A stretch of DNA of 64,000 bases. Source: Archaeoglobaceae archaeon. Its GTDB lineage: Archaea; Halobacteriota; Archaeoglobi; Archaeoglobales; Archaeoglobaceae. Location: assembly GCA_027064525.1 (NCBI GenBank), contig JAMOPJ010000008.1, positions 62,001 to 126,000 on the forward strand, written 5' to 3'. Below the pieces are notes generated by a model. The model did no database searches. It was not told where the DNA came from and was given only the letters and a program-made list of their open reading frames with translations. A program made the position numbers and the translations under genes. The first letter of the stretch is position 1; every line of letters begins with the position of its first letter. Positions 38,716 to 42,338 of this stretch are shown one piece after another.

Positions 38716-40988
38716 TGAGAACTCTGCTCATAAAGGCGATCAGAGATTTAAAAGCTCAAAAATGGCAGTTCTTGGCCGTCTCATTCCTCGTCTTCTTAGG
38801 AGTGGCTCTGTTCAGCGGTCTCTATTCATCGTATCTAAACATAGAGGCGACCTACAAGAAGTTTTACACCCAGACGAACTTCGAAGATTTGGGAGTGGAG
38901 TTCAATCCCGCTCCGAAGGATCTGCTAAAGATGGTAAAGGCAATACCGGGAGTCAAGGCAGTAGTTGGAAGACTAACAGCATATGCGACGATGGAGATTG
39001 AAGGAAGGGAGATCAGACTGAAATTGGTCTCGATTCCTGAAGAGAACTCTAAGGTCAACAGCCTGTTCATCGTGGAAGGTGTGTATCCAAAGCATAACGA
39101 GGTTCTGATTCTAAAGAAGTTTGCGGATCTCAATGGTATAAGCGTTGGACAAGTGCTCCACGTCAGGCTGAACGGTAAGATATACGATCTCAGGGTATCC
39201 GGATCCGCTTACAGCCCCGAATATATTTTAATTTCTGAAAGAACGAACGTCCTTGCCTCACCAAAGGATATGGGCGTTCTGTTTGTCCCATACAATATGA
39301 TGGAAGAGATGACGGGCTTGAAGGGGAAGATAACGGAGGTTCATGTGAAGATATACGATGAAGATCGAGCGGACGAGATTCTGAACAAGGTTAAGTCGGA
39401 ATTCCGGCTGTATGGACTGAAGTCCTTCTATAAGAGGGAAGGTCAGCCGAGCTACAAGCTTTTGAAGATGGATTTAGAAGGCTTCAAGCATATAGCGTTC
39501 ATGTTTCCAAGTATGCTTCTGCTCATAGCCGTTTTGGCCGTCTACATACTCCTTTCAAGAATTGTGATTGAGCAGACGGGAATAATAGCTGTTCTTAGAG
39601 CTTTGGGATACTCGAAGAGAACGGTGATTTTCCATTTCCTCACGTATTCTATTCTGATAGGTTTGATAGGAACATCTCTTGGCGTTCTGGCTGGATACTA
39701 CATTTCCGCTGGGATGACATCATCATACGTGGATGTTCTAAACGTGCCCTACCACGTAACCGAAATTTATTCGAACGTTTTGCTCGCATCGGCTATAGCT
39801 GGACTTTTAGCACCTCTGATAGCCGGAATATTTACAACGAAGAGAATAGCCGAGATAGAGCCGGCAATAGCTATGAGAGGATTTAAAATAGAATATAAAG
39901 TTCTGGGCTTAGACAGACTGCTCAGAAGATTCTCGATTCTCACGAGGCTTGCGATAAGGAACATCTTCAGAAATCCTAAGAGGACTCTCTACACGCTCTT
40001 TGGAGTTGTTATGGGCGTCGTGCTGATTGCAACTTCTTTAGCGTTCGTCGATTCCGTTGACGAGATGCTGCATATACAGTTCGACAAAGTTCAAACTTTC
40101 GATTACAAGGTAGAATGCTCGAATCCGACGGACATTAAGAGGCTTGTGGGTGTTGAGGAAGCTTATCCACTCGTCGAGACTTGGATATTGTTGGAGAGAA
40201 ATGGAATCGCAAAATCGAGCGTTCTCATAGGGCTTCCGACTGGCCAGGATCTCTTCAACATCTATGATCTGAACGGAAGGAAGCACCATCCACCACCCAA
40301 GGGGATAATATTACCCAAATTCATAGCCGAAAACCTGAGTATAGCTAAGGGAGAGGAGATATATGCGTTCATTGAGATCGGGAAGGTTAGGCTTAAGGTT
40401 TACGACATCGTTGACCAGCCCCTCATACCGGCATGCTACGCCAGCTTGGAGGGGCTTGAGAGGTTAGGATTTAGGCCAAACGAGGTGATAGTGAAGGGTG
40501 GGGATGAAAACAAGCTCAAGAGGTTTGGAGCTGTGGTTTCGATGAAGAAGTTGAGGGAGAATATAGTTGAAATGATGAGCATGATGTCCGAGTTCTTTGC
40601 CTTCTCAGTCCTCTTCGGAGCTTCGCTGGCCTTTGCTGAAATATTCAACACCACGACGATAAACATCTTGGAAAGGAGAAGGGAGATTGCAACGTTGAGG
40701 ATGCTTGGTTACACCGTAAAAGAGATAGCGATTTCGATTCTCGTGGAGACATTTACCATAGGTTTGGTGGGGTTGCTGTTAGGATTTCCACTCGCAATTC
40801 TTACGCTCAAAGGGTTCGAGATGACCTACAAGAGCGAGATGTTTAACATGCCTTTCGTCATGTATCCGAGGACGATAGTTGTCACGGTTGTGGTGATAGT
40901 CCTAACGCTTTTAGCGTCGCTGATTCCGGGGATAAGGTTCGTGGCCAAAATGGAGATAGATAAGGTGACAAAAGAGGTCACAGGATGA
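38712..40988 (+). CDS. ABC transporter permease, FtsX/MacB family
   Basis: A large permease of 758 residues with two FtsX modules. The N-terminal membrane helix (WQFLAVSFLVFLGVALFSG) precedes a soluble region of about 230 residues. Helices then recur (LLLIAVLAVYILLSRIVIEQ; VFGVVMGVVLIATSLAFV; FFAFSVLFGASLAFAEIF; TFTIGLVGLLLGFP; VVVIVLTLLASLIPGIRF). The REIATLRMLGYT segment is the cytoplasmic coupling motif. The gene overlaps the converging arginine decarboxylase by 11 bases. Substrate unknown. Confidence 0.88.
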   Translation: MMRTLLIKAIRDLKAQKWQFLAVSFLVFLGVALFSGLYSSYLNIEATYKKFYTQTNFEDLGVEFNPAPKDLLKMVKAIPGVKAVVGRLTAYATMEIEGREIRLKLVSIPEENSKVNSLFIVEGVYPKHNEVLILKKFADLNGISVGQVLHVRLNGKIYDLRVSGSAYSPEYILISERTNVLASPKDMGVLFVPYNMMEEMTGLKGKITEVHVKIYDEDRADEILNKVKSEFRLYGLKSFYKREGQPSYKLLKMDLEGFKHIAFMFPSMLLLIAVLAVYILLSRIVIEQTGIIAVLRALGYSKRTVIFHFLTYSILIGLIGTSLGVLAGYYISAGMTSSYVDVLNVPYHVTEIYSNVLLASAIAGLLAPLIAGIFTTKRIAEIEPAIAMRGFKIEYKVLGLDRLLRRFSILTRLAIRNIFRNPKRTLYTLFGVVMGVVLIATSLAFVDSVDEMLHIQFDKVQTFDYKVECSNPTDIKRLVGVEEAYPLVETWILLERNGIAKSSVLIGLPTGQDLFNIYDLNGRKHHPPPKGIILPKFIAENLSIAKGEEIYAFIEIGKVRLKVYDIVDQPLIPACYASLEGLERLGFRPNEVIVKGGDENKLKRFGAVVSMKKLRENIVEMMSMMSEFFAFSVLFGASLAFAEIFNTTTINILERRREIATLRMLGYTVKEIAISILVETFTIGLVGLLLGFPLAILTLKGFEMTYKSEMFNMPFVMYPRTIVVTVVVIVLTLLASLIPGIRFVAKMEIDKVTKEVTG

Positions 40989-41472
40989 AAACGGCCGTTG
41001 CTACGACTGTGGTAAACTTCCCTTCTTCAACCTTTGCCTTCTTCGTCACGTTGAACTTCATCGCCGGATCTATGCCGAAGGCAGTTTTGAGCATGTATTC
41101 TGCTTTATCCTCGGCATACTTACCAACATCCTCATTTTCTTCGCAGTATCCGTAGTATTCTGTTAGGTAACCGTTCAAATTCTTGTCCTCTGGAATCGCC
41201 ACGCCTATACTTGCATATATCGTCTTTCCAGCCTCGTTGCTCGTCATCTTGGCCATGACGCAGAACACTATTTGCCCCGGACTCAGATGTTTTAGCCCCT
41301 CATCCCTCTCAACGATCTCACATCCCGGTGGAAATATGCTGCTCACGTAAACCAAGTTGAACTTCTCTATTCCCGCATCTCTCAAAGCTAACTCGAACGA
41401 GACGAGTGCATCCTCGTGATGTCCCACTCCGGCTGTGAAGAACACCTTTTTGGGAACCCAGATCTCTTTCAT
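40978..41472 (-). CDS. pdaD: Pyruvoyl-dependent arginine decarboxylase
   Basis: A 164-residue precursor that self-cleaves to make the pyruvoyl group. The cleavage serine lies in the VYVSSIFPPGCE segment; GVGHHEDALVSFELALRDAGI, KMTSNEAGKTIYASIGVAIP and GYLTEYYGYCEE are typical of the archaeal PvlArgDC family. It makes agmatine for polyamine and agmatidine synthesis. The end overlaps the converging permease gene. A TATA-like GCTTAAAT (minus strand, around 41500-41508) lies about 30 bases upstream. Confidence 0.93.
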   Translation of the reverse strand: MKEIWVPKKVFFTAGVGHHEDALVSFELALRDAGIEKFNLVYVSSIFPPGCEIVERDEGLKHLSPGQIVFCVMAKMTSNEAGKTIYASIGVAIPEDKNLNGYLTEYYGYCEENEDVGKYAEDKAEYMLKTAFGIDPAMKFNVTKKAKVEEGKFTTVVATAVFIL

Positions 41473-41537: not shown

Positions 41538-41543
41538 TATATA
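41538..41543 (+). promoter_or_regulatory. TATA box for the C/D RNA and AK6 gene
   Basis: TATATA at 41538-41543 in the context GCATATATACC. Transcription is expected to start about 26 bases later (near 41566), which is just before the C box of the guide RNA at 41569. One promoter would therefore serve the sRNA and the AK6 mRNA. Confidence 0.55.
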
Positions 41544-41568
41544 CCGCTCTCTCATACTCTCTAAGCCG

Positions 41569-41617
41569 ATGATGAAACGAGGGCGAGCTGATGGATGATG
41601 AATCCACCCGTTTCTGA
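41569..41617 (+). ncRNA. C/D-box guide sRNA overlapping the AK6 gene start
   Basis: The four boxes are in order and ideally spaced. C box ATGATGA lies at 41569-41575, a 12-base guide at 41576-41587, D' box CTGA at 41588-41591, a 3-base spacer, C' box ATGATGA at 41595-41601, a second 12-base guide at 41602-41613 and D box CTGA at 41614-41617. Sequences flanking the ends (AGCC and GGTT) can form a short terminal stem. Archaeal C/D sRNAs guide 2'-O-methylation of rRNA or tRNA at the nucleotide paired five bases before D or D'. A TATA box is placed to begin the RNA just before the C box. Targets not identified. Confidence 0.7.
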
Positions 41618-42158
41618 GGTTGTGGCCATAACCGGAACACCGGGGACTGGCAAAACTACGGTTGCGAATGTATTGCGAAGGAGAGGCTATAGAATCCTAT
41701 CTGTAAATGAGCTCGCGGAAAGGCTGGATTGCATAATCGGAGAGGAGGAGGGATGTAAAGTGGTTGATGTCGAAAAGCTTGCTGAAAGGGTTCGCTCGAT
41801 TCTGCCCAAAGGACTCGTGTTGTTGGAAGGTCATCTATCTCACCATCTCAATCCTGACAAAGTAATAGTCCTGCGTTGCAATCCGGTAGAGTTGAAGAGG
41901 AGACTCGAAGGCAAGGGATGGCCAGAGGAGAAGGTTTTGGAGAACGTTGAGGCGGAGATAGTGGATTCAATTCTAATAGAGGCTATAGAGAGCTGTGATG
42001 AAGTTTATGAGATAGACACGACTGAGATGTTGCCAGAAGAGGTTGCTGATGCAATAGAATTGTTAATCAGAGGTGAAGCAAAAGATAGATTCAAACCGGG
42101 TAAGATCGACTGGATATCCGTAGTCGGTGATAGGATAGAGGAATTTATGAGATTGTAA
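41595..42158 (+). CDS. AK6/Fap7-type adenylate kinase
   Basis: Small P-loop kinase of 187 residues in the AK6/hCINAP/Fap7 group, linked to small-subunit rRNA maturation and to adenylate kinase activity. AITGTPGTGKTTVANVLRRRGY is the P-loop; GLVLLEGHLSHHL, VIVLRCNPVELKRRLEGKGWPEEKV and ENVEAEIVDSILIEA are typical. Starts: ATG 41595 lies in the C' box of an overlapping sRNA and adds MMNPPVSE, which the family does not need; GTG 41622 would give the canonical start and is a real alternative. The C-terminal FKPGKIDWISVVGDRI is also typical. Confidence 0.88.
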   Translation: MMNPPVSEVVAITGTPGTGKTTVANVLRRRGYRILSVNELAERLDCIIGEEEGCKVVDVEKLAERVRSILPKGLVLLEGHLSHHLNPDKVIVLRCNPVELKRRLEGKGWPEEKVLENVEAEIVDSILIEAIESCDEVYEIDTTEMLPEEVADAIELLIRGEAKDRFKPGKIDWISVVGDRIEEFMRL

Positions 42159-42234: not shown

Positions 42235-42338
42235 CCCGCCTTAGCTCAGTCTGGCAGAGCGCGGGCCTGTAGTTTGCCAGCCCCCAGTGGCTGGGGGCAG
42301 AGAGCCCGGGGTCCCCGGTTCAAATCCGGGAGGCGGGA
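42235..42338 (+). tRNA. tRNA-Tyr (GUA) with an intron
   Basis: A 104-base gene. Acceptor CCCGCCT/AGGCGGG has C1-G72, the archaeal tyrosine identity pair, with A as discriminator. The anticodon stem is CGGGC (42262-42266) and GCCCG (42304-42308), and the loop reads C-T-GTA-G (42267-42272) then A (42303). The 30-base insert at 42273-42302 is an intron after position 37. It carries a GCCCCCAG/CTGGGGGC hairpin that, with the anticodon stem, can present a bulge-helix-bulge to the splicing endonuclease. A TTTTATAT box precedes the gene. Confidence 0.96.
42273..42302 (+). other. Intron of tRNA-Tyr
   Basis: 30 bases inserted directly 3' of the anticodon-adjacent G37. A perfect 8-base stem (GCCCCCAG with CTGGGGGC, loop TGG) forms within it. 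Cutting on both sides would restore a 7-base anticodon loop CTGTAGA. Exact boundaries could shift by a base. Confidence 0.85.

Follow-up and report, generated by a model that had tools for sequence, protein, structure and literature searches.

Can the same bases serve as a methylation guide RNA and as the beginning of a protein-coding gene? The question is raised by positions 41569-41617 of the stretch of DNA that was analysed (64,000 nucleotides, hereafter the window), where a sequence-only reading had noticed the boxes of a C/D box sRNA running into the gene for AK6/Fap7. As the best explanation of the whole, we hold with considerable confidence that this is a functional double-guide C/D box sRNA, which in this genus is fused to the 5' end of AK6/Fap7. 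The features concerned are the following:

41538-41543, + strand: TATA box TATATA; the ATATATA columns are invariant in the genus alignment
41566-41619, + strand: predicted mature C/D box sRNA, including a 2-bp terminal stem of CC (41566-41567) with GG (41618-41619)
41569-41575, + strand: C box ATGATGA, by direct sequence reading
41576-41587, + strand: D' guide AACGAGGGCGAG, by direct reading; predicted target 16S C1303 (G001 numbering), E. coli 1324
41588-41591, + strand: D' box CTGA, whose TGA (41589-41591) is the in-frame stop directly upstream of AK6
41592-41594, + strand: spacer TGG, 3 nt, with letters that vary and a length that is the same in 9/9 orthologues
41595-41601, + strand: C' box ATGATGA, equal to AK6 codons 1-2 plus the first base of codon 3
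41602-41613, + strand: D guide ATCCACCCGTTT, inside AK6 codons 3-7; predicted target 16S G916 (G001 numbering), E. coli 940
41614-41617, + strand: D box CTGA, by direct reading
41595-42158, + strand: AK6/Fap7 adenylate kinase ORF, 187 aa, with PDB and NCBIfam matches

The four boxes were found exactly as had been claimed, in the order C, D', C', D, enclosing two guides of 12 nt each and a spacer of 3 nt, at 41569-41617, and they agree with the RUGAUGA (C/C') and CUGA (D/D') of archaeal C/D box sRNAs. The strict four-box pattern occurred once in the 64-kb window and in none of 100 dinucleotide shuffles, on which ground a chance motif was rejected as the source of the box pattern. In a looser scan of the window the AK6 sRNA was the single hit with zero deviations, every other hit showing at least four, and all hits in 20 first-order Markov resamples had at least two. 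A TATA box at a fitting distance had also been proposed, and TATATA indeed lies some 26 nt upstream of where the RNA is expected to begin. The nucleotides CCG before the C box and GG after the D box were kept in 9/9 orthologues, four of these at other loci, and the short CC/GG pairing provides a terminal stem of the k-turn type, with no k-turn appearing there in the energy fold. The Rfam model snoPyro_CD matched over its full length (41565-41620, E 4.6e-6, 36.2 bits), which is under its 45-bit gathering cut-off, and at the gathering thresholds the AK6-linked sRNA was not listed in a curated family. Energy folding of the naked sRNA was no better than that of shuffles (z -0.93), and the predicted free-RNA fold pairs the D' guide with the D guide. 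Parts of the two guides are mutually complementary (AAACG..GG with CC..CGUUU; window 41574-41614), so that free RNA can hide both. A Shine-Dalgarno-like GAGG was seen at 41579-41582, inside the D' guide, and was given no weight.

Because the 16S of the genome itself is partial, in two pieces, and its 23S is absent from the assembly, target sites were taken from same-genus relatives, whose 16S and 23S were scanned. In all three full same-genus 16S genes (G001, G002 and G004) the D' guide forms 11 contiguous Watson-Crick pairs (CTCGCCCTCGT) and the D guide forms 10 (AACGGGTGGA), while the best guide runs in 23S were 8 (the one same-genus 23S found, from G002). The guides of about 12 nt are complementary to rRNA, as the sequence-only reading had expected of its two 12-mers, and both match the 16S of the same-genus relatives; the runs are of 11 and 10 nt, not of 12. 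At least 10 pairs were reached by 1.2% of shuffled guides in each case, and by both guides together in 5 of 20,000 shuffled pairs. As a control we used the 25 sRNAs that the strict pattern detects in this genome (the reversed pattern gives 0): 23 of their 50 guides reached at least nine pairs, versus 6.4% of shuffled guides.

By the fifth-nucleotide rule for the position next to D/D', as stated in the accessible text of PMC7994747, the predicted sites are C1303 and G916 of G001, which correspond to E. coli 1324 and 940 (MG1655 numbering). The predicted marks in 16S are Cm at E. coli 1324 and Gm at 940, and the small RNA very probably directs both of these 2'-O-methyl marks. The two sites are 387 nt apart and, by the E. 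coli numbering, both presumably lie within 16S domain III. In N. equitans, sR15 and sR17 pair with distant strands of 16S helices 28 and 30 in domain III and have been proposed as folding chaperones (PMC4644070, in the part available). Both target sites were present in all 13 16S genes examined. Seven of these genes come from genomes that gave no strong match to the sRNA, so conservation of the targets does not follow the presence of the sRNA; with targets identical in 13/13, co-evolution was rejected as evidence. Separately, locus L037 of G048 carries, mid-locus on the minus strand, another sRNA whose D guide (GTTCACCCGTTT) is similar and whose D box is CAGA; its D' guide is different, with an 11-nt pairing at another 16S site, near 1206 (G001 numbering).

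The overlap with the 5' end of AK6/Fap7 was confirmed, as the ORF 41595-42158 opens in the C' box. Its kinship to characterised AK6/Fap7 is evident from its best solved relatives, which are the putative adenylate kinase of PDB 4cvn (E 1.3e-33) and human AK6 5jzv (E 2.6e-12), and it reached 152.5 bits against NCBIfam NF003012 (cut-off 152). We take 4cvn to be Pyrococcus abyssi aFap7. A complex of Pyrococcus abyssi aFap7 is described in PMC4019466, in the portion of that paper available. The TGA of the D' box is the in-frame stop directly before the AK6 frame in 5/5 genus genomes, and in G003 and G002 there is no ATG, GTG or TTG from the C' box to the P-loop, so AK6 must begin in the C' box there. 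The suggestion that the AK6 start codon lies inside the C' box is thereby forced for G002 and G003 and, from the sequences, likely for the other three genomes. The sRNA and AK6 form a 5'-overlapping sRNA-ORF pair, with the ORF start codon within the sRNA.

It is nevertheless conceivable that the sRNA is real and that AK6 has a shorter transcript of its own or begins further downstream (at GTG 41622 or at a non-standard codon), the C' box being no start at all. Such starts exist, as GTG 41622 in the window or the GTG at codon 9 in G001 and G004 would yield the usual AK6 N-terminus, and one other in-frame link between an sRNA and a gene in this genome looks incidental. Among the 25 sRNAs, two have a same-strand ORF of at least 80 aa starting inside them, namely AK6 and an Lrp-like regulator; the latter follows a C/D sRNA at L121:1573-1621 (minus strand), where the C' box frame leads into the Lrp-like gene in G000, G001 and G004. 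The Lrp-like gene was rejected as a second genuine case, the C' frame being broken in G002 with a downstream ATG remaining. For AK6, however, the absence of any such start in G003 and G002 speaks against a downstream start, as do the frame through the C' box, open in 5/5 genomes, and the position upstream of the sRNA of the sole TATA box that is conspicuously conserved in the alignment. We consider a separate or downstream start unlikely, and retain the C' box as the start of AK6.

The sRNA unit was found at the AK6/Fap7 start in 5/5 genus genomes. The D guide is identical in all five and the D' guide in four, G002 differing at the last, unpaired position; G002 also has one C box change, and its C' box reads GTGATGA. 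The spacer letters are TGG, TGA, CGT, CGT and TGC, always of the same length. The AK6 extension peptide is invariant from residue 2 onward in the five genomes, and within codons 3-8 all six residue-invariant degenerate codons are identical, whereas in the remainder of the gene this holds for 15 of 112 comparable codons (Fisher p 1.6e-5, which is indicative only, given that the genomes share ancestry and adjacent codons do not vary independently). The longest run of identical codons is seven (codons 2-8), versus two elsewhere in the gene, and the upstream half of the sRNA, before the ORF, is conserved about as much as the coding half. Thus the boxes and guides are kept in relatives, as had been anticipated, and beyond what the coding sequence demands: coding-only conservation was rejected because synonymous positions are frozen in the overlap and the first half lies upstream of the ORF. 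The seven columns of ATATATA are likewise invariant in 5/5 genus genomes. By a motif check, arginine decarboxylase lies upstream in only one of the five genus loci, the window's own, so the conserved unit appears to comprise the TATA box, the sRNA and AK6. In the window this divergent neighbour (40978-41472) is a pyruvoyl-dependent arginine decarboxylase.

Additionally, we searched the family with a sequence model built from the five genus sRNAs and obtained strong matches (E < 1e-11) in 9/55 genomes: the five of the genus (g1), G019 and G021 (g4), and G027 and G028 (g7). The third g4 genome, G020 (72% complete), gave no match to the model. With gene names read from the ORFs, the g4 sRNA follows a methyltransferase-like gene and the g7 sRNA precedes an aminotransferase-like gene; these four orthologues at non-AK6 loci show the sRNA kept independently of its neighbour gene. 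Of the two g7 genomes, G028 likewise has a frame that starts in the C' box and runs into the aminotransferase, and G027 has none. Middle guide positions form the core of the duplex. Among the nine orthologues the guide changes fall at positions 1, 11 or 12, the duplex ends, with the exception of position 10 of the D guide of G021, which has an internal mismatch to the 16S site; both guides keep at least 10 pairs with 16S in 8/9 orthologues. A 16S tree covering 13 genomes unites the rows of g1, g4 and g7 in one group with 100/100 support, although within that group the branching is weakly supported and g1 does not come out as a single clade.

AK6 was detected in 52/55 family genomes. Upstream sequence was inspected at 25 of the 47 AK6 loci outside the genus, with 24 readable starts (L059 gave no motif match). 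Most of these genes start immediately ahead of (L/I/V)(I/V)A(L/I)TGTPG, with many overlapping the upstream gene; a few (e.g. L066, L068, L075) carry unrelated codons of their own upstream, and the MNPPVSE extension was absent from the inspected AK6 genes outside the genus. Because the sRNA lies at other loci in two sister genera, the AK6 link does not seem ancestral; with AK6 elsewhere lacking the extension, the guide gene appears older. The sRNA thus probably predates its link to AK6, and within g1 ancestry AK6 probably gained its start codon and N-terminus from the older guide gene, from which it probably also gained its promoter. Two further observations concern the surroundings of AK6. In three relatives the 16S gene is on the strand of AK6 and has AK6 some 340 to 1,015 nt upstream of it, which is another link of AK6 with small-subunit RNA (G027:C1:1403140-1405498, G029:C1:438174-440679 and G031:C1:397637-400665). 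In the window, AK6 is directly followed by a tRNA that appears to contain an intron (42235-42338), which Rfam detects and ARAGORN does not and whose anticodon looks like GUA.

The element could also be mainly an L7Ae-binding leader that controls AK6 translation, its guides being relics. There is a precedent in Sulfolobus acidocaldarius, where L7Ae represses its own mRNA via a 5' UTR k-turn (PMC5539422, as far as the text is accessible); yet the guide cores are kept where AK6 is not attached, and the retention of at least 10 pairs by both guides in eight of nine orthologues is not expected of relics, which makes this explanation very improbable. That there is no guide RNA at all, and that the boxes are only a leader and the conserved beginning of the coding sequence for an N-terminal extension of AK6, fits the coding second half and its peptide invariant from residue 2, but is already contradicted by the frozen synonymous positions, the about equal conservation of the first half upstream of the ORF, the same two-guide unit at non-AK6 loci in the sister genera and the 16S matches of both guides, and can be given practically no credence.

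With the double-guide sRNA fused to AK6 as the preferred reading, a course of events can be proposed. Transcription would proceed from the TATA box at 41538 and start at about 41566, the 5' end of the sRNA. The sRNA and AK6 may share one promoter and transcript, and the basis for this is that TATA box, because ATATATA is invariant in 5/5 genomes at a fitting distance. No other promoter-like element upstream of the sRNA and AK6 is conspicuously conserved, and a scan for bacterial-type promoters and terminators gave nothing relevant. From established C/D biology, the folded RNA would recruit L7Ae, Nop5 and fibrillarin, and the resulting sRNP would direct 2'-O-methylation at the two same-domain 16S sites (E. 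coli 940 and 1324) and perhaps also aid folding of the targeted region. Read-through transcripts would be the AK6 mRNA, translated from the ATG or GTG of the C' box, so that AK6 would bear an eight-residue extension dictated by the guide; the sRNA may be processed out of this mRNA. Since ribosome and sRNP would need the same bases, one molecule probably serves one role only.

A further and tentative possibility, to which we give clearly less weight, is that one transcript has two exclusive fates, in which binding of C/D proteins yields the 16S guide and binding of a ribosome at the C' box yields AK6/Fap7, the non-coding RNA having donated promoter, start codon and N-terminus. Abundant C/D machinery would then lower AK6 synthesis, and in this way the fusion would couple rRNA modification to small-subunit maturation. 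Such competition between sRNP and ribosome is speculative, with L7Ae k-turn leader control as its precedent (PMC5539422, in its available part).

The locus offers a clean natural case of the same bases being at once guide RNA and part of a coding sequence. The cost of this double use is visible in the frozen codons of five genomes, and the sister genera show the likely order, guide first and gene later. It raises the testable question whether archaeal methylation-guide assembly controls translation of a ribosome-assembly factor.

Our literature search, in which coverage of subscription journals was small, found no paper on an AK6-linked C/D sRNA. Eukaryotic snoRNAs in ribosome-related host genes are intronic, so one transcript can yield both products. 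The AK6 arrangement is similar in that guide and ribosome-related protein would be on one transcript, but differs in that the bases are shared. Compared with archaeal C/D sRNAs (N. equitans sR15/sR17; Rfam snoPyro_CD and sR), the boxes, the length of about 54 nt, the two guides and the terminal stem are the same, and the predicted 16S targets are likewise far apart in sequence and in one domain, whereas the second half of the AK6-linked sRNA is protein-coding, and its guide pair is not named in the accessible parts of their accounts. The L7Ae autoregulatory leaders also have a k-turn near the start codon, but as described in the available text of PMC5539422 they are not methylation guides, and comparable control of AK6 is speculative. 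According to the survey of Tripp et al. (2017), as summarised in the accessible part of PMC7994747, 7% of the C/D sRNA genes of archaea overlap the 5' end of a gene, and a TATA-like motif is present in 20%. The same text places the start codons of 5' overlaps most often in a guide or beyond the D box, and states that such an overlap reduces transcription of the (reporter) gene that follows. The AK6-linked sRNA resembles these in overlapping the start of the downstream ORF, and differs from them, as far as that source goes, in a start codon within the C' box, its presence across the genus and a TATA box at a suitable distance for initiating the sRNA. The AK6 fusion is a clear, conserved member of this known arrangement, in which a C/D sRNA lies over the start of an ORF.
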